Assembly (NCBI RefSeq): GCF_000379725.1
Contig: NZ_KB903622.1
Location: 62,001-126,000, forward strand
DNA: 64,000 nucleotides
Direction: 5' to 3'
Source of the DNA: Cytophaga aurantiaca DSM 3654
GTDB taxonomy: Bacteria > Bacteroidota > Bacteroidia > Cytophagales > Cytophagaceae
Part shown: positions 3,350 through 15,775 of the stretch, piece after piece
Layout of the letters: each line of letters starts with the position of its first letter
How positions within the stretch are numbered: position 1 is the first letter of the stretch
Notes under the pieces: model-generated
Seen by the model: only the letters and a program-made list of their open reading frames with translations
The model's database searches: none
What the model was told of the DNA's origin: nothing
Made by a program: the position numbers and the translations under genes

Positions 3350-3903
3350 ATGAGTTCCAAATATAAAATAAGAGATGGGCAGTATGCGCATTTCGTTACG
3401 TTTACTGATGTCAATTGGATCGATGTATTTACAAGAGATGAATATAGAATGATTATTATTGACAGCTTAAACTATTGTATAAACCATAAAGATTAAATGT
3501 ACATGCATATTGTATTATGACTAATCATGTACATTTAATTATAAGTGCAAAAGATGCAGATATAAATCTCGCTTTTGTAGTACGAGATATAAAAAAGTAT
3601 ACTTCATATAAATTGCTAGATACGATTAGACATACTCCGTTTGAAAGTAAAAAACAATGGATGCTTTGGATGTTTGAACGGACAGGAAGTAAAAATACGA
3701 GTAATGAACGTTGTCAATTATGGCAGAATGGCTATTATCCGATCGAACTTAGCAGTGTAGCTTTGGTAGAGCAACGTTTAGATTACATTCATAACAATCC
3801 GGTACGTGGGGGCTTTGTATTATCAGCAGAAGAATATAAATACAGCAGCGCGCGTAATTATGCAGGAGGTATTGATTGTATGATGAATGTAACGTTTTTG
3901 TAA
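3350..3903 (+). pseudogene. REP-associated tyrosine transposase (RAYT), frameshifted
   Basis: RAYTs are IS200-like Y1 HUH transposases that mobilise REP palindromes. The first frame begins ATG at 3350 (MSSKYKIRDGQYAHFVTFTD, a normal RAYT N-terminus) and stops at 3494-3496. The remainder continues in another frame with the HUH-type core 'HAYCIMTNHVHLII' and the C-terminal 'WQNGYYPIELSS' and 'YIHNNPVRGGFV' motifs to 3903. One missing base at about 3490-3493 explains the break. The expected catalytic Tyr in 'GYYPIEL' is kept. REP-like clusters flank it on both sides, as expected for this family. It could also be a sequencing error. Confidence 0.85.
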
Positions 3904-9626: not shown

Positions 9627-9753
9627 GTCTGAACTATGATTCATGTGATTAGTATGATAAACATGAAATTGAATATCATAAATGATTCTTATAATAATTT
9701 GCTGCATATTATCATAGCAATCAGTTACATCAGGTGAAATCAGTGGTTCAGAC
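9627..9753. mobile_element. GTCTGAAC inverted-repeat element, copy 1
   Basis: 127 bp bounded by GTCTGAAC and GTTCAGAC. The inner core 'TTATAATAATTT' and 'ACATCAGGTG' is shared with the other copies. The left arm is of the TATGATTC type and the right arm of the CACTGATT type, so this copy looks like a hybrid. It lies 5 bp behind the stop codon of the minus-strand gene at 9759. MITE-like; no transposase for it is visible in this window. Confidence 0.8.
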
Positions 9754-9758
9754 GATTC

Positions 9759-10796
9759 TTACCTTAACACAAACCCAGCATACACTTGTGCGGTGGGAAA
9801 TAGTTGCGGATAGACGGATGATAAAAAGCTATTTTGGCCCTGAAAACTATCGGCACTACCAAAGCGGAATTGAGGACCTGCCCAGCCACCTAAGATCACT
9901 CTTCTGGCAATCAGGAACTGAATTCCAAGCATTCCTTTTACACCGTATCCGGTAGCATGATCGGGGTATACTGACGCATACGGATTGGAAGGATTTACAC
10001 GATCTTTGTTATAAAATATAAATGGAGAAATACCCACAAACAATCCGTCATACGCATGGTTTTTGAATAAAGCCATATAACGGATCAATTGAGGTTGAAA
10101 CAGAACAAAGGTAGAACTGGTTTGATAGCTATAGCTGTCGGCTCCATAGGTCCAGGATCCGGCTTCCATGTATAGACCCAACGATGTCTTGCGCTGAATG
10201 AGAAATTCATAAGACGCGCCTATTCGTGGGTACTGCGTGAAAGGCACTCCCAGATTTATTTTAAAACAATGTTTAGGTCTGTTTGCTGGTATGTCATAAT
10301 AAATGTTCCGGATAAGCATCTGCAATGTTTTATGACGTACAGAAGAATAAATTTTCAGTGGTTTGTAATCCGACTCGCTGGAAGAAGCCTTCGTGAAGTT
10401 GTATATATATGTTTGGTATGTGGAAGAAGAGTAGGAGTATCCGGTATTGCCAAATCCGCCATTGCTGTAACCATAGGTGGGACTTGATGTCGTCATCCTT
10501 CTTGATACTTGTTCTTTACGCAGTGCATAACCATTATTTAAACTATCCATACTCAAGGCTTCCAGGCTGTCTTCCGAAATGAATACATAGTTGTACGGAT
10601 AATACCTTTTGAAGATCTTCTTCGCTTTTTCATAATTATAGGGAAGTTTATCATTTTCTGAGACCGGGAAATACAGCGTGCGTTTAGCTAGATCTGCAGG
10701 TATACAGCTATCCTTTGCAAACCGCCATAATTTTTGAGCAAAAGAAGAAGTAGAACAACAAAGAAGAAACGAAAGAATCAGAATTCGAATGTACAT
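9759..10796 (-). CDS. Putative outer-membrane beta-barrel protein
   Basis: The ATG at 10796 is preferred because it opens a clean signal peptide (MYIRILILSFLLCCSTSSFAQ); the frame extends 21 codons further upstream without one. 345 residues. The N-terminal ~130 residues are Tyr/Ser-rich with a 'YGYSNGGFGNTGYSYSSS' stretch. From ~170 there are alternating aromatic strands typical of a small beta-barrel (INLGVPFTQYPRIGASYEF, GLFVGISPFIFYN), and the protein ends 'AQVYAGFVLR'. No named family recognised. An inverted-repeat element follows 5 bp after its stop. Confidence 0.65.
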   Translation of the reverse strand: MYIRILILSFLLCCSTSSFAQKLWRFAKDSCIPADLAKRTLYFPVSENDKLPYNYEKAKKIFKRYYPYNYVFISEDSLEALSMDSLNNGYALRKEQVSRRMTTSSPTYGYSNGGFGNTGYSYSSSTYQTYIYNFTKASSSESDYKPLKIYSSVRHKTLQMLIRNIYYDIPANRPKHCFKINLGVPFTQYPRIGASYEFLIQRKTSLGLYMEAGSWTYGADSYSYQTSSTFVLFQPQLIRYMALFKNHAYDGLFVGISPFIFYNKDRVNPSNPYASVYPDHATGYGVKGMLGIQFLIARRVILGGWAGPQFRFGSADSFQGQNSFLSSVYPQLFPTAQVYAGFVLR

Positions 10797-10899
10797 TGAA
10801 GTAGGAGTAAAATATGTAGTGCAAAGATAAAGAAAAGTGTGAGCTGGGGAAATCGCCAATCTTAGGTAAAAATATAAATTTTTATTTTTATTTCCTTTT

Positions 10900-11027
10900 G
10901 TCTGAACAGCTCATGAAGCTGATTTATATGATGAACATGAAATAGAATATCTGAAGTGACTCTTATACTAATTTACTGCATGTTGTCATCTCAATCATTT
11001 ACATCAGGCAGAATCAGCGGTTCAGAT
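10900..11027. mobile_element. GTCTGAAC inverted-repeat element, copy 2
   Basis: 128 bp bounded by GTCTGAAC and GTTCAGAT (one terminal change). It shares the core ATATCTGAAGTGACTCTTAT and the AATCATTTACATCAGG word with the other copies. Its right end touches the stop codon (11028-11030) of the minus-strand 81-aa gene, with no base in between. Confidence 0.8.
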
Positions 11028-11273
11028 TTATTTTTTCAAATAGATTCCCCAAACGCAATTAGAAAATTCGCCTGCCGCAAATGTAACTGCTGTTTGTTCA
11101 TTCGTTATTTCATAAACCGTAAAGATAAAATCCTGTCCGTATAACGGATCTTTGATTTGTATTGTCTCTCCTGTATTCTTCCAGTTGCTGTCCCAGATAT
11201 TCAGACCGCCGACTTCAAACCGTTCGCCGTCTGTGATTGTGCGAGCGTGTTGCCAGTTGTTGTTATCGGTCAT
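11028..11273 (-). CDS. Hypothetical protein (81 aa)
   Basis: Begins MTDNNNWQHARTITDGERFE and ends CVWGIYLKK. Soluble, Trp-rich and without a signal peptide. The residues 'DPLYGQDFIFTVYEITNEQTAVTFAAGEFSN' suggest a small beta-rich domain. No family recognised. The stop codon directly abuts a GTCTGAAC element, so the natural C-terminus may have been redefined by the insertion. Confidence 0.5.
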   Translation of the reverse strand: MTDNNNWQHARTITDGERFEVGGLNIWDSNWKNTGETIQIKDPLYGQDFIFTVYEITNEQTAVTFAAGEFSNCVWGIYLKK

Positions 11274-11329
11274 ATTATATAGGTGTGCCAGGAGGATAAG
11301 AACATAGATTAAAATGAATAGACGTATGA

Positions 11330-11809
11330 CTACTCAATTAAATTGTGTAAACGGATAGGCGGGTAGTCCGACCTTGTTGCATTGTTATATTGACTAATAA
11401 CTTCAATCGCTTTAATAGATTCAATTTTAGGCGCAGCGTTAATAGAAAGAATCTCATGTTCTTCTAATGTGTTGAACGTATTTTCTATGAAACTAAAATA
11501 CGGATGATCTGTTCTGCTGTCGATGGAATAATGATGGAAGTCGATCTGTATCGGATTGCTGTTGATTTGATACTTATATCCATATCGGGTGATTTTATCT
11601 TCCGCACCGCATTTGTCAAGATGTGAAGGGCTAAGATAATCCATGGTGTATTCAATGAAATCATACGCTTCACTTATTGCAATAATGAGTTTGGAATTGC
11701 ATTTATGAACGTTGCCATTTTCTGTATAAAGCAAAAGTCTCAAATGGATAACTCTGCCATCGTCTTTTGTTTTAAAGTGGTAGCTTAAGCAATAATAAGA
11801 TTTTAACAT
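11330..11809 (-). CDS. Hypothetical protein (159 aa)
   Basis: Begins MLKSYYCLSYHFKTKDDGR and ends PPIRLHNLIE. No signal peptide or membrane segment is seen. It is rich in Tyr, His and Ile and has a 'YSIDSRTDHPYFSFIENTFNTL' middle. No family recognised. It stands alone between repeat-rich spacers and is on the same strand as the 81-aa gene downstream (56-bp gap). Confidence 0.5.
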   Translation of the reverse strand: MLKSYYCLSYHFKTKDDGRVIHLRLLLYTENGNVHKCNSKLIIAISEAYDFIEYTMDYLSPSHLDKCGAEDKITRYGYKYQINSNPIQIDFHHYSIDSRTDHPYFSFIENTFNTLEEHEILSINAAPKIESIKAIEVISQYNNATRSDYPPIRLHNLIE

Positions 11810-11981
11810 CGGTTTAGATATTGATGTTTTGGGGTATCGCTGAGACCTTGGGAAGTTCAGCGTATTGGAGTTAATTATTTATACCTGCAATATTCGATTT
11901 TTTTAGTATAAATACTATAGTAACGGGTCCTGTTTTTTTTGATTTGTTCTCTTAAAGGTGTTCAAAGTGGGTTTTCTCATG

Positions 11982-12401
11982 CTTGTTGGAGTTTTCAAAG
12001 CAGCGGATATCGTTTCTTTGCGCCCCCAATACGGACGAATAGCGGGACGGTGAAAAGGCCTTTTCTCACGGTATTGCTGAAAACAGATCTAACTTGGTAT
12101 CGGTGTGGTCGGATGTGATAAATCACGGCAAACGAAAGACTTTTTATTGATCAGAAAACACATTACCTAACAATATACACGCATGGAGCTCCGTCCAGGA
12201 GAAACGTTTGTTTGTTATTTCTTGGCGTTACATTCCTTTTGTCTGAACCACTGATTAAGCTGATTGGACTGATAAGAAATGATAATTGAAGATCTGAAAT
12301 GTTTATGATAATAATTTACGGCTTGTTATCATATTAATCATTTACATCAGGTGAATCAGCGGTTCAGACAATTTTCGATTGATCTTGGGAACTCCAACAA
12401 G
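11982..12401. repeat. Gene-free stretch with long-distance inverted repeat, inner repeats and element copy 3
   Basis: The 864 bases between 11810 and 12673 hold no convincing complete gene. CTTGTTGGAGTT at 11982-11993 is the perfect inverse of AACTCCAACAAG at 12390-12401. Between them are a GTGAAAAGGCCTTTTCTCAC palindrome near 12050, a GGAGCTCCGTCCAGGAG word at ~12185 (also present in the 277-bp tandem repeat) and inverted-repeat element copy 3. The outer arms resemble the 15855/15908 inverted repeat, so this may be an older element into which copy 3 was nested. Confidence 0.6.
12241..12369. mobile_element. GTCTGAAC inverted-repeat element, copy 3
   Basis: 129 bp bounded by GTCTGAACCACTGATTAAG on the left and GAATCAGCGGTTCAGAC on the right; both arms are of the CACTGATT type. 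Flanking T and A extend the inverted repeat by one base. It sits within the gene-free stretch before the cryptochrome gene. Confidence 0.85.
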
Positions 12402-12504
12402 GGTGGAGAATGCCTCCCTGTTTTGCAAAACATAATTTTATGTCCTGTACGATAAACAAACAGCCATATCAATTGTTTATAAAATAGTGTGAAGAAAGAA
12501 CAGA

Positions 12505-12656
12505 ATGAAAGCAGAAGCAAAAGCACATTACACATTACCTGATGTATTGGCTTTGGAAAAGAGATAAAAAGTCAATCGTATTTTCGAAGAAACCTAACTT
12601 TAGGCGCAAAACCTTTTGAAGAACTTAAAGATATTCCATTGGATTATAAAATCTAA
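12505..12656 (+). pseudogene. Possible small gene remnant upstream of the cryptochrome
   Basis: An ATG at 12505 opens 'MKAEAKAHYTLPDVLALEKR' then stops. A different frame continues 'QSYFRRNLTLGAKPFEELKDI' and ends 'PLDYKI' with a TAA at 12654-12656. The two halves look like one coding region broken by an indel, but I cannot name a family, and the reading may be chance. Confidence 0.25.
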
Positions 12657-12673
12657 TTTCTCTCGTTGTATAT

Positions 12674-13972
12674 ATGTCAAAAAAAATATCCATTGTATGG
12701 TTTAAAACAGATCTCCGTTTAACGGATAACGAAACGCTCTTGCGTGCTATAGCCGAAAGCGATGAGATCATTCCTGTCTATTGTTTTGATCCGGATCATT
12801 TTAATAAAACGGAATTTGGATTTCAAAAGACTGGAAATTTCAGAGCACAGTTTCTGTTGGAGTCTGTAATAGCACTTGATCAGGCGCTGCGTAAAAAAGG
12901 ATCGGGACTGCTGGTCTTAAGAGGAAGGCCGGAAAAAGAACTGCTCAATGTAATTAAAGAATACAACGTCAAAAAAGTTTATGCAAAAAAAGAAGTTGCT
13001 TATGAAGAGATCCAAAAGGAAACAGATGTTGAACGGGAAATATGGAAACTGAATTGTATCTATACAAAATGCAGTACAAGTACATTGTATCATGCGGAAG
13101 ATCTTCCGTTTTCTATAAAAGACATTCCGGATACATTTACAATTTTTAAAAAGAAAACAGAAAAAGAAACACCGATACGAAAAGCATTTGATGCTCCGGA
13201 AAAAATTGTATCTCCTAACATACCTAAGGCGAAATTCCCTTCCATGAAAGAATTAGGTCTTCAACAGATCACGATCGATAGTAGGAGAGCTATGGCATTT
13301 AAAGGAGGAGAGGAGGAAGCATGCAAGCGTCTGCATACTTATTTTTACGAAACAAGAGCTATTGATACGTATAAACAAACACGAAACGGATTGATTGGTG
13401 CAGACTATTCTACAAAATTTTCACCCTGGCTTGCTCTTGGTTGTATTTCGCCGCGCTCTGTTTATAAAGAATTGAAGGAATATGAAAATGCATATTCTGC
13501 TAATGAATCCACCAGTTGGCTTGTGTTTGAATTATTCTGGAGAGATTATTTCAGATTTATGATGAAAAAATATCACAACCGGTTTTTTATGCAGACAGGG
13601 ATTAAAAATAATTCCAACTACATCAATAAACACAATCCGGATTTATTTTATGCCTGGATTAACGGGACTTGCGGCGTAGATCTTGTAGATGCCAATATGA
13701 TTGAATTAAAACGAACCGGTTTTATGAGCAATCGCGGTCGACAAATTGTTGCAAGCTATTTATGCAACGATCTGAAATTGGATTGGCGCTATGGTGCTGC
13801 CTATTTTGAACAGCAGCTGATCGATTATGATGTATGCAGCAATTGGGGGAACTGGGCATATCTCGCGGGCGTTGGCAATGATCCCAGACCAGACCGTTAT
13901 TTCAATATAGAAAAGCAAGCGAAGGAGTATGATTCCAAAAGTGCCTATAGAAATTTATGGCTGCATGAGTAA
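12674..13972 (+). CDS. DASH-family cryptochrome / deoxyribodipyrimidine photolyase
   Basis: 432 residues, full length for a bacterial cry-DASH. Residues ~5-170 are the photolyase alpha/beta antenna-binding domain (ISIVWFKTDLRLTDNETLLRA, VYCFDPDHF). Residues ~210-425 are the FAD-binding domain: 'YKQTRNGLIGADYSTKFSPWLALGCIS' and 'WLVFELFWRDYFRFMMKKY' are DASH hallmarks, followed by 'GFMSNRGRQIVASYLCNDL' and 'WGNWAYLAGVGNDPR'. The family repairs cyclobutane pyrimidine dimers with blue light, mainly in single-stranded DNA, or serves as photoreceptor. It is not in an operon; downstream is inverted-repeat element copy 4 between convergent genes. Confidence 0.92.
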   Translation: MSKKISIVWFKTDLRLTDNETLLRAIAESDEIIPVYCFDPDHFNKTEFGFQKTGNFRAQFLLESVIALDQALRKKGSGLLVLRGRPEKELLNVIKEYNVKKVYAKKEVAYEEIQKETDVEREIWKLNCIYTKCSTSTLYHAEDLPFSIKDIPDTFTIFKKKTEKETPIRKAFDAPEKIVSPNIPKAKFPSMKELGLQQITIDSRRAMAFKGGEEEACKRLHTYFYETRAIDTYKQTRNGLIGADYSTKFSPWLALGCISPRSVYKELKEYENAYSANESTSWLVFELFWRDYFRFMMKKYHNRFFMQTGIKNNSNYINKHNPDLFYAWINGTCGVDLVDANMIELKRTGFMSNRGRQIVASYLCNDLKLDWRYGAAYFEQQLIDYDVCSNWGNWAYLAGVGNDPRPDRYFNIEKQAKEYDSKSAYRNLWLHE

Positions 13973-14013
13973 ATGTTCTTTACCGGAAGCGGATTGATGG
14001 GCGAAGTCCCAAT

Positions 14014-14141
14014 GTCTGAACCACCGATTAAGCTGATTGATAGGATGAGAATGATCTTGAATATCTGAAATGATTCTTATAATAATTTACTGCTTGTTAT
14101 CATATCAATCATTTACATCAGGTGGAATCAGCGGTTCAGAC
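14014..14141. mobile_element. GTCTGAAC inverted-repeat element, copy 4
   Basis: 128 bp between the stop of the cryptochrome gene (13972) and the stop of the convergent DUF1801 gene (14156). The left arm GTCTGAACCACCGATT pairs with the right arm AATCAGCGGTTCAGAC; an inner stem TGATTGATAxGAT continues after a bulge. The position suggests it could also act as a bidirectional terminator. Confidence 0.85.
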
Positions 14142-14155
14142 AATTGCCTGGTTGG

Positions 14156-14770
14156 TTATTTTTTTGATTGCCAGAATCTATCTTTTCCTTCTGCGATCCA
14201 TTCCAACGATTGTTCAATTCTTTTTTGTCTGGTTGCATCTGTTTTTGCTTCGGCAAGCCAAACGATATAGCTTTTGCGAAACGATGGCGATTTGCTTTCA
14301 AATATCGCAAGTGCCTTTTTGTCTTTTTTTAGCGCGTCAGTAAATTCTTTAGGAGCAACAGCTTCTACGGTAGATTTCTCTTTAACCGGTTTTGGTTTTG
14401 CAGTTCCGCTTGCATTTAATTCCATTGCTTCTTTAATATAAGCAACCAGAATTTTCTTAGCAGGCAATTCAGATACATCCTTGATCTTGTCCATAAAGCC
14501 AAATTTCTTTCCTGCAAGCACACTTTCCTGAATGGCTTTATCTTTCATTAGTTCGGCTTTATATAAATTAAAGGAACAATGCTGTTTGAAGCCCGCCATC
14601 ATAACTAAATGGTCGCCTTTGTATGAATAATGAGGTATTCCCCATTTTATATTTTCTTCCACATCCGGACAGGTACTATGTATAATTTCTCTCAAATGTG
14701 TAAGGATAGGTTTCGCAAAGTCAGCCATTTTTGCGATGTACTCATCTACTTCTGTATTGTGATTTACCAT
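14156..14770 (-). CDS. DUF1801 / YdeI-like (OmdA) protein
   Basis: 204 residues, cytoplasmic. The N-terminal ~115 residues form a DUF1801 domain (EVDEYIAKMADFAKPILTHL, 'IKWGIPHYSYKGDHLVMMAGFK'), followed by a Lys/Pro-rich linker. The C-terminal ~60 residues match the YdeI/OmdA 'bacteriocin-protection' module ('FTDALKKDKKALAIFESKSPSFRKSYIVWL' is its core; shown here in part: SPSFRKSYIVWLAEAKT). The biochemical role of either domain is not well established. It is convergent with the cryptochrome gene. Confidence 0.85.
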   Translation of the reverse strand: MVNHNTEVDEYIAKMADFAKPILTHLREIIHSTCPDVEENIKWGIPHYSYKGDHLVMMAGFKQHCSFNLYKAELMKDKAIQESVLAGKKFGFMDKIKDVSELPAKKILVAYIKEAMELNASGTAKPKPVKEKSTVEAVAPKEFTDALKKDKKALAIFESKSPSFRKSYIVWLAEAKTDATRQKRIEQSLEWIAEGKDRFWQSKK

Positions 14771-15110
14771 ATCAATAAGAATAATTTATGTTACAATTTA
14801 TAACGTTAAATTTTTTGAATGTTTAAGTTAAGAAAAATTGTGATTTTTTAGCATCATACTACACAGATTATCTACTGCGGCAGAGGCTGAAAAATCACAA
14901 CCAAGGCGAGATGAGACGTGGTTATGGTTGTGCGGTAGATATGCATGCCAGATGTTATTCTAAACGATAACTGCCCACCAGAAAGTCATTACCCCAGCGG
15001 GGTAACATATCTGTAGAAACTACATCACCTGACAATATATACGCACGGAGCTCCGTCCAGGAGCGACGTGTTTTATTTGTTGAATGAGATGATCAATTAC
15101 ATTCTCTTTT

Positions 15111-15235
15111 GTCTGAACTATGATTCATGTGATTAATATGATGAACATGAAGTTGAATATCTGAAATGACTCTTATAATAATTTACTGCATGTTATCATA
15201 TCAATCATTTTAATCATAAGAATCATAGTTCAGAC
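15111..15235. mobile_element. GTCTGAAC inverted-repeat element, copy 5
   Basis: 125 bp inside tandem unit 1. Left GTCTGAACTATGATTCATG, right AAGAATCATAGTTCAGAC: both arms are of the TATGATTC type and pair with each other. Confidence 0.85.
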
Positions 15236-15387
15236 AAATTCCGATAACTGCCAACCAGAAAGTAATTACCCCAGCGGGGTAACATATCTGTAGAAGATAC
15301 ATCACCTGATAATGTTTACGCACGGAGCTCCGTCCAGGAGCGACGTGTTTTATTTGTTGAATGAGATGATCAATTACATTCTCTTTT

Positions 15388-15512
15388 GTCTGAACTATGA
15401 TTCATGTGATTAATATGATGAACATGAAGTTGAATATCTGAAATGACTCTTATAATAATTTACTGCATGTTATCATATCAATCATTTTAATCATAAGAAT
15501 CATAGTTCAGAC
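15388..15512. mobile_element. GTCTGAAC inverted-repeat element, copy 6
   Basis: 125 bp inside tandem unit 2 and, as far as I can read, identical to copy 5, which fits recent duplication of the whole 277-bp unit rather than two insertions. Confidence 0.85.
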
Positions 15513-15652
15513 AAATTCCGATAACTGCCCACCAGAAAGTCATTACCCCAGCGGGGTAACATATCTGTAGAAACTACATCACCTGACAACATACACGCAC
15601 GGAGCTCCGCCCAGGAGCGACGTTTTTGCAATACTTCATTACATTCTCTTTT

Positions 15653-15775
15653 GTCTGAACCACTGATTAAGTTGATTCATTTGATAAAAAATGATGTGGA
15701 AGATCTGAAATGCTTATTATAATAATTCACTCTATCAGATTAATCATTTGAATCAGGTGAATCAGCGGTTCAGAC
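15653..15775. mobile_element. GTCTGAAC inverted-repeat element, copy 7
   Basis: 123 bp at the end of the third repeat unit. Both arms are of the CACTGATT type (GTCTGAACCACTGATTAAG and GAATCAGCGGTTCAGAC), unlike copies 5 and 6, although the block before it is homologous. Confidence 0.85.

Follow-up and report, generated by a model that had tools for sequence, protein, structure and literature searches.

What kind of element has left seven hairpins within 6 kb of the Cytophaga aurantiaca DSM 3654 genome? The hairpins lie between positions 9627 and 15775 of the window, by which we mean the whole 64,000-nucleotide stretch analysed here (C3:62001-126000, from a genome of 4.42 Mb in 46 contigs). 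The original prediction offered a structured RNA with covarying arms or a non-autonomous element. In this work, we argue that the hairpins are probably gene-less relatives of small elements that carry a GxxExxY gene between arms of the same kind. We further suggest, with confidence close to but short of even, that the nuclease predicted from this gene is the means by which the elements spread.

The evidence that carries this reading comes from GxxExxY genes in other genomes. A single scan of GTDB genomes gave 579 confirmed loci, the best 80 of which were analysed; most are from Bacteroidota and the rest from Chlorobiota, Ignavibacteriota, Spirochaetota, Nitrospirota, Cyanobacteriota, Chloroflexota and further phyla. 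Among the 72 loci with full 300-bp flanks, inverted arms (score of at least 30) enclose the gene in 47, compared with 6 of 360 control placements at other positions of these loci. Arm pairs drawn across different loci also score highly (339 of 1410 reach 30), because the arms are alike between species. With up to one mismatch, the word TGTCTGAA flanks the gene on both sides and faces inward in 44 of the 80 loci and outward in 3 (15 and 2 when no mismatch is allowed), and its exact form occurs in 9 of 649 stretches that lie 1 kb or more away. The DNA uptake sequence of Neisseria is GCCGTCTGAA; that it has GTCTGAA in common with the element ends we take as coincidence.

The full form of these elements is an arm, the GxxExxY gene and a second arm, where each arm opens with TTGTCTGAAC/T and continues in 8-9-nt words containing GAT(T). 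The 44 two-ended elements are 463-766 bp long. Half of them have an extra arm copy beside the gene (22 of 44; 11 after it, 15 before it, 4 of these both, against 0 of 1760 shuffles), which gives the order arm, gene, arm-loop-arm or the mirror image. Recombination between arms could therefore leave hairpins such as those of the window, and we consider gene loss by this route plausible. The element of a relative (L224) is built from the window's own arm words, in the order GTCTGAACCACTGATT.., GxxExxY, then GTCCGAACCACTGATT..loop..AATCAGTGGTTCAGAC, so that losing everything between its two like-directed arms would yield a window-like hairpin.

The window copies follow the same design. In their arms, GTCTGAAC is followed by GAT- or GATT-containing words, and successive GATs are 9 nt apart in 55 of 86 cases across 30 arms of this genome, compared with 8 or 9 nt in 211 of 277 cases across 88 arms of GxxExxY elements. 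The window holds 14 occurrences of GTCTGAAC against 1.3 expected, and 6 exact GTCTGAAC-N90..120-GTTCAGAC pairs against none in 100 shuffles. Copy 1 (9627..9753) combines a left arm TATGATTC with a right arm CACTGATTTC, which are of mixed classes, and its right end is 5 nt from a minus-strand stop codon. Copy 2 (10900..11027) is degenerate, with a weak fold and a right end, GTTCAGAT, directly at a minus-strand stop codon. Copies 3 (12241..12369) and 7 (15653..15775) have an exact end pair, and copy 4 (14014..14141) is flanked by the stop codons of two converging open reading frames (ORFs), 41 nt and 14 nt off. Copies 5 (15111..15235) and 6 (15388..15512), with TATGATTC in both arms, are identical and not independent, as they lie inside one 277-bp tandem duplication (97%). 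The prediction of seven copies with common ends and an AT-rich core holds in that all seven exist, the core is common to them and six pairs are exact; copy 2 departs from the common ends, and copies 5 and 6 count as one.

All copies lie between protein-coding ORFs and not in a ribosomal RNA (rRNA) gene, have no ORF of their own, and have no target-site duplication evident by eye. In 6 of the 16 gene-less hairpins of this genome, at least one end is no more than 15 nt from a stop codon. For comparison, 7.4% of the intergenic points in the window are as near to one, a figure per point where a hairpin has two ends. This genome has 68 arm motifs and its control 5; for a congener the numbers are 71 and 3. 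The core of the window copies recurs three times on one contig of a congener and as a 21-bp match in the genome itself. In a comparison aimed at empty sites of the window copies, the photolyase was the only one of the window ORFs compared that matched stretches around its homologues in two other genomes (G060 and G048). A second repeat family, with GGAGCTCCGTCCAGGAGCGACG, stands beside copies 3, 5, 6 and 7 (12153-12219, 14965-15073, 15242-15350 and 15519-15627), partly within the 277-bp tandem unit. Two hairpins on another contig (C24:164529-164856 and C24:160595-160805) carry a terminator-like stem or other palindromes in their loops, which thus seem free to accept other sequence.

Gene-bearing elements are also present in this genome. 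A PF13366 search gave five matches, representing four genes, and all four are flanked by inverted arms of short GAT words. The gene on C35 lies inside GGATT-type arms and that on C6 between complete TGATT-class hairpins; the gene on C5, inside GTCTGAA..TTCAGAC arms, is broken by two in-frame TAA codons, and that on C43, between two complete GTCTGAAC hairpins, is frameshifted. The two intact proteins match GxxExxY (NCBIfam, TIGR04256) and PDDEXK_3 (Pfam, PF13366). In a protein tree with few columns and many open forks, the C6 protein is sister to that of L224 (99/83). With gene-bearing elements of the same kind of arms in the genome, and the same ends in other species, the notion of a non-autonomous element is well supported. 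It had also been noted that no transposase with matching ends is visible; this is true of the window, but elsewhere matching ends enclose a gene for a PD-(D/E)XK nuclease. The original prediction was to give way to a full-length transposon that explained the ends as plain terminal repeats, and the full-length element with a nuclease gene that does exist comes close to that case. An apparently complete 190-amino-acid gene, which we take to be DUF4256-like, is bracketed by GTCTGAAC arms at C6:55206-55995 (L033, L250), and the arms may therefore carry other cargo. In the same tree, two cyanobacterial and one spirochaete protein (L152, L168, L164) cluster (98/88) within a mainly Bacteroidota part, a sign of transfer between phyla.

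GxxExxY is a PD-(D/E)XK nuclease by its modelled fold, and its activity is predicted. E78 and K80 do not vary among 78 homologues, in which D68 is conserved to at least 90%. The AlphaFold2 model (predicted local distance difference test score 94) is nearest to SSO0001 (4ic1; Z 9.6, root-mean-square deviation 3.4 over 100 residues); restriction enzymes and Hjc follow with Z scores of 6 to 7.5, which may reflect no more than a shared arrangement. A sequence search of the PDB with the L121 protein gave no match, and PADLOC returned nothing beyond weak matches to Cas4b models.

Where do the full elements insert? Taking the longest ORF near the gene as its neighbour, the upstream ORF is co-directional with GxxExxY in 64 of 71 loci, the downstream ORF in 58 of 74, and both in 52 of 70; most elements are therefore likely to be transcribed. 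Neighbour families, where one protein may match more than one, include Methylase_S (12), Eco57I (8), N6_Mtase (6), EcoR124_C (4) and EcoEI_R_C (3) for 71 upstream neighbours, and HSDR_N (14), Methylase_S (13), SWI2_SNF2 (5), N6_Mtase (4) and HsdM_N (4) for 74 downstream ones. Many loci have ordinary neighbours, e.g. MutS, ThiC or PNTB. The stop codon of a same-strand upstream ORF is the element's own TGA (in gTC TGA) in 9 of 40 cases and lies 1-3 nt ahead of the element in 10 of 40, and a same-strand downstream ORF starts 2-3 nt after it in 14 of 37. Full elements often fill exactly the gap between one gene's stop codon and the start codon that follows; type I restriction-modification operons, which defend against viruses, are frequent sites.

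The hsdR|hsdS junction was read in 16 homologous loci of the window's order. Two are filled (L221, L224), and L223, where the stop of hsdR overlaps the start of hsdS in ATGAGTAA, is a clean empty site. No GTCTGAA-ended element was seen at the other 13, one of which (L234) has a broken frame and an unread junction; three (L220, L230, L231) have other word-like repeats by eye. Pfam matches place hsdR upstream and hsdS downstream of the gene at L117, L121, L122 and L136 as well. The six proteins encoded at this junction are scattered across the tree, with L121, L224 and L117 in separate supported groups and L122, L136 and L221 in one poorly resolved group, for which repeated entry into the junction would be the simplest reading.

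Some elements are flanked by repeats of their target. Exact flanking repeats of at least 10 nt were found in 4 of 47 elements (L117, L121, L136, L109) against 3 of 2000 control pairs, although L109 may not count, as its left repeat adjoins another hairpin end. Allowing mismatches, 46 elements were compared with 2070 control pairs. At L117, 54 nt of the hsdR end are repeated with 6 differences, and at L130, 51 nt of the start of the next, hsdR-type gene, also with 6; both score above all controls. For L115, L121 and L136, respectively, 7, 8 and 55 controls score at least as high. Judging by the diverged copies, flanking DNA may have come from the donor together with the element.

We hypothesize that these observations reflect nuclease-driven spread. 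The PD-(D/E)XK nuclease would cut a junction target or an extruded hairpin, and break repair would insert a copy of the element, at times together with donor flanks. With an in-frame TGA at its edge and a cleavable hairpin, the element could keep the host operon working. Recombination or slippage between two like-directed arms would then remove the gene and leave one hairpin, for which the formation of solo long terminal repeats offers a parallel, and local duplication afterwards could build a 6-kb cluster like that in the window.

How does this compare with a selected, structured RNA? As expected of such an RNA, folding is better than in dinucleotide shuffles for five of six distinct copies (z -3.7 to -7.8), the exception being copy 2 (z -0.5). 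The left and right arms had been said to change together. Copies 5 and 6 do match in both arms, and copies 3, 4 and 7 have left arms like CACTGATT and right arms CGCTGATT; but copy 1 is mixed, the left arm of copy 2 has diverged, and own arms match no better than randomly paired ones among the six distinct copies (p=0.19) or among 12 TGATT-class hairpins of the genome (p=0.33). Pooling 15 distinct hairpins of the GGATT and TGATT classes gives p=0.013, which we read as the split between the classes. Arms of two classes are joined in single hairpins of this genome (copy 1, C24b and C1) and likewise in two hairpins of a congener. RNAalifold, applied to the six window copies and two of a congener, returned an unfavourable covariation term (+0.39 kcal/mol), with changes on both sides in 3 of 16 predicted pairs. 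With the few sequences available, selection on base pairing thus finds no support in covariation by either permutation or RNAalifold. An Rfam scan of the window gave no match and loops differ among the hairpins of this genome, all of which makes a selected RNA highly improbable. We are equally sceptical of palindromes like the repetitive extragenic palindromic (REP) sequences, moved by a Y1 transposase of the REP-associated tyrosine transposase (RAYT) type in the same genome. There are eight Y1 matches here, including one decayed copy in the window, but GTCTGAA to the left and TTCAGAC to the right of the gene were found at none of 18 Y1 loci in four genomes, and in another genome of the order (G043), with 36 arm motifs, Y1 gave no match. 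Y1 was therefore rejected as the mover of the window hairpins; other transposase families were not searched, and the gene found between such ends is that of the nuclease. The decayed, IS200-like Y1 gene of the window (3394-3636) lies among palindromes CAGTCTTTGACTGC and GCGGGACTCGTG, not among GTCTGAAC hairpins.

Two further explanations concern the gene. GxxExxY could be a working accessory gene of restriction operons, with the arms as regulatory hairpins only and not the ends of a mobile element. Its frequent restriction-modification neighbours would fit, but so many loci have ordinary neighbours, and arms also surround the broken genes on C5 and C43, that we doubt this strongly; nor would it account for the target repeats and the gene-less hairpins. 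Alternatively, the hairpin may act as RNA: transcription would carry it along between genes and RNase III would excise it, as happens to the intervening sequences (IVSs) of 23S rRNA; GxxExxY and S23 would be passengers or RNA helpers, and spread would be by recombination. S23 is the protein of rRNA IVSs (PMC4990558; PMC11270868). In the window's order, 18 of 31 S23 (PF05635) loci, one locus with a cut flank left out, are bracketed by word arms of the same design as GxxExxY arms but with other words, against 0 of 93 control placements. Two of the three S23 genes of this genome are bracketed (C2:54318-54632 and C43:102396-102710; L058, L059), by inverted arms of the words TAGTTACTAGG and AAGTAATAAG. 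In Flavobacterium columnare an S23-type gene is listed between guanylate kinase and nadD-type genes (PMC5524665), again at a gene junction. These arms, the co-directional neighbours and the good folds would suit an IVS-type RNA element, but it leaves the conserved nuclease residues of GxxExxY unaccounted for, does not by itself explain the target repeats and assigns the RNA a function that covariation does not support; we judge it unlikely.

A broader version of the nuclease proposal, which we advance more tentatively still, places GxxExxY and S23 in one class of minimal mobile elements, each with one small ORF between quasi-tandem short-word arms, that spread without a transposase. A homing-type nuclease would seat the GxxExxY branch at the stop/start of operons, above all of type I restriction-modification, duplicating the junction and leaving the neighbours intact; rRNA IVSs would be the rRNA branch, and hairpin clusters like that of the window the gene-less remains.

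Several results weigh against relating the window hairpins to GxxExxY elements and their spread. The exact arm words of the window are found at none of the GxxExxY genes of this genome, and the closest gene, on C6, sits between hairpins and not within one arm pair. The sample of 80 loci is biased, being the best of 579. In a separate draw from the window's own order, 24 loci had usable coordinates (L067, L073, L083, L085 and L093 were left out) and 13 of them have an arm score of at least 36, where a cross-locus control puts 95% at 28 and 99% at 38. These arms are mostly of other words, CACAGAGG for instance, which makes GTCTGAAC one of several classes, and GTCTGAA ends appear only in L082 and in L055 of this genome among the arm pairs listed. 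The core is confined to this cluster within its own genome, bar the one 21-bp match, and genome-wide hopping of the gene-less form is therefore not demonstrated. Many genomes of the order have arm motifs no more numerous than the control, and G043, with its 36 motifs against 3 in the control, has no GxxExxY match. Few elements have clear target repeats (10 to 54 bp). Insertion polymorphism between strains was not seen via plasmid and phage records, which comprised 6 plasmid records with GxxExxY, all below 65% identity, and no phage record. The copy on a Persicobacter plasmid has word arms by eye and no GTCTGAA pair. The gene-less hairpins of G043 have no visible parent of the Y1 or the GxxExxY kind.

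Modest alone, the hairpins point to a family of hairpin elements that carry a nuclease gene and have apparently not been described before; in the literature searched, by title or the start of the abstract, we found no description of GxxExxY elements or of these hairpins. Hairpins of this type, which can be abundant in genomes of Bacteroidota, thereby gain an identity, and a possible role is suggested for GxxExxY, a widely annotated protein treated only in passing in the papers found. Furthermore, the movement and tolerance of small ORF-plus-hairpin elements become testable, including the old puzzle of rRNA IVSs. Insertion from stop to start in a restriction operon would be harmless in an unusual way.

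Homing endonuclease elements consist of a small nuclease gene that repeatedly enters one conserved site and leaves its neighbours intact. The GxxExxY elements resemble them in the small nuclease gene, in neighbours left intact, in putative repeated entry and in possible co-conversion of flanks, and differ in their hairpin ends, their gene-less derivatives and a nuclease of the PD-(D/E)XK type whose cutting is predicted only. Miniature inverted-repeat transposable elements (MITEs), e.g. MITECca01 of Cardinium (PMC9769881), are likewise short, gene-less and intergenic, with ends common to a gene-bearing parent, as the TGTCTGAA ends and GATT words of GxxExxY elements are here. The parent of MITECca01 is an IS982-family element, whereas the parent gene here is a PD-(D/E)XK nuclease and not a known transposase (Y1 is not associated, other families were not searched), and the arms here are runs of short words. 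REP sequences and their RAYTs, from what is available of PMC2817692 and PMC3733652, share the many dispersed intergenic palindromes; the arms are longer here and no association with Y1 was found. The 23S rRNA IVSs with S23 (PMC4990558, PMC11270868) share long inverted ends that form a stem around one small ORF, and the S23 genes of the window's order lie in the same kind of arms. The difference is one of gene and site: S23 and rRNA helices there, and here GxxExxY, carried by the related elements with the window's ends, and gene junctions.

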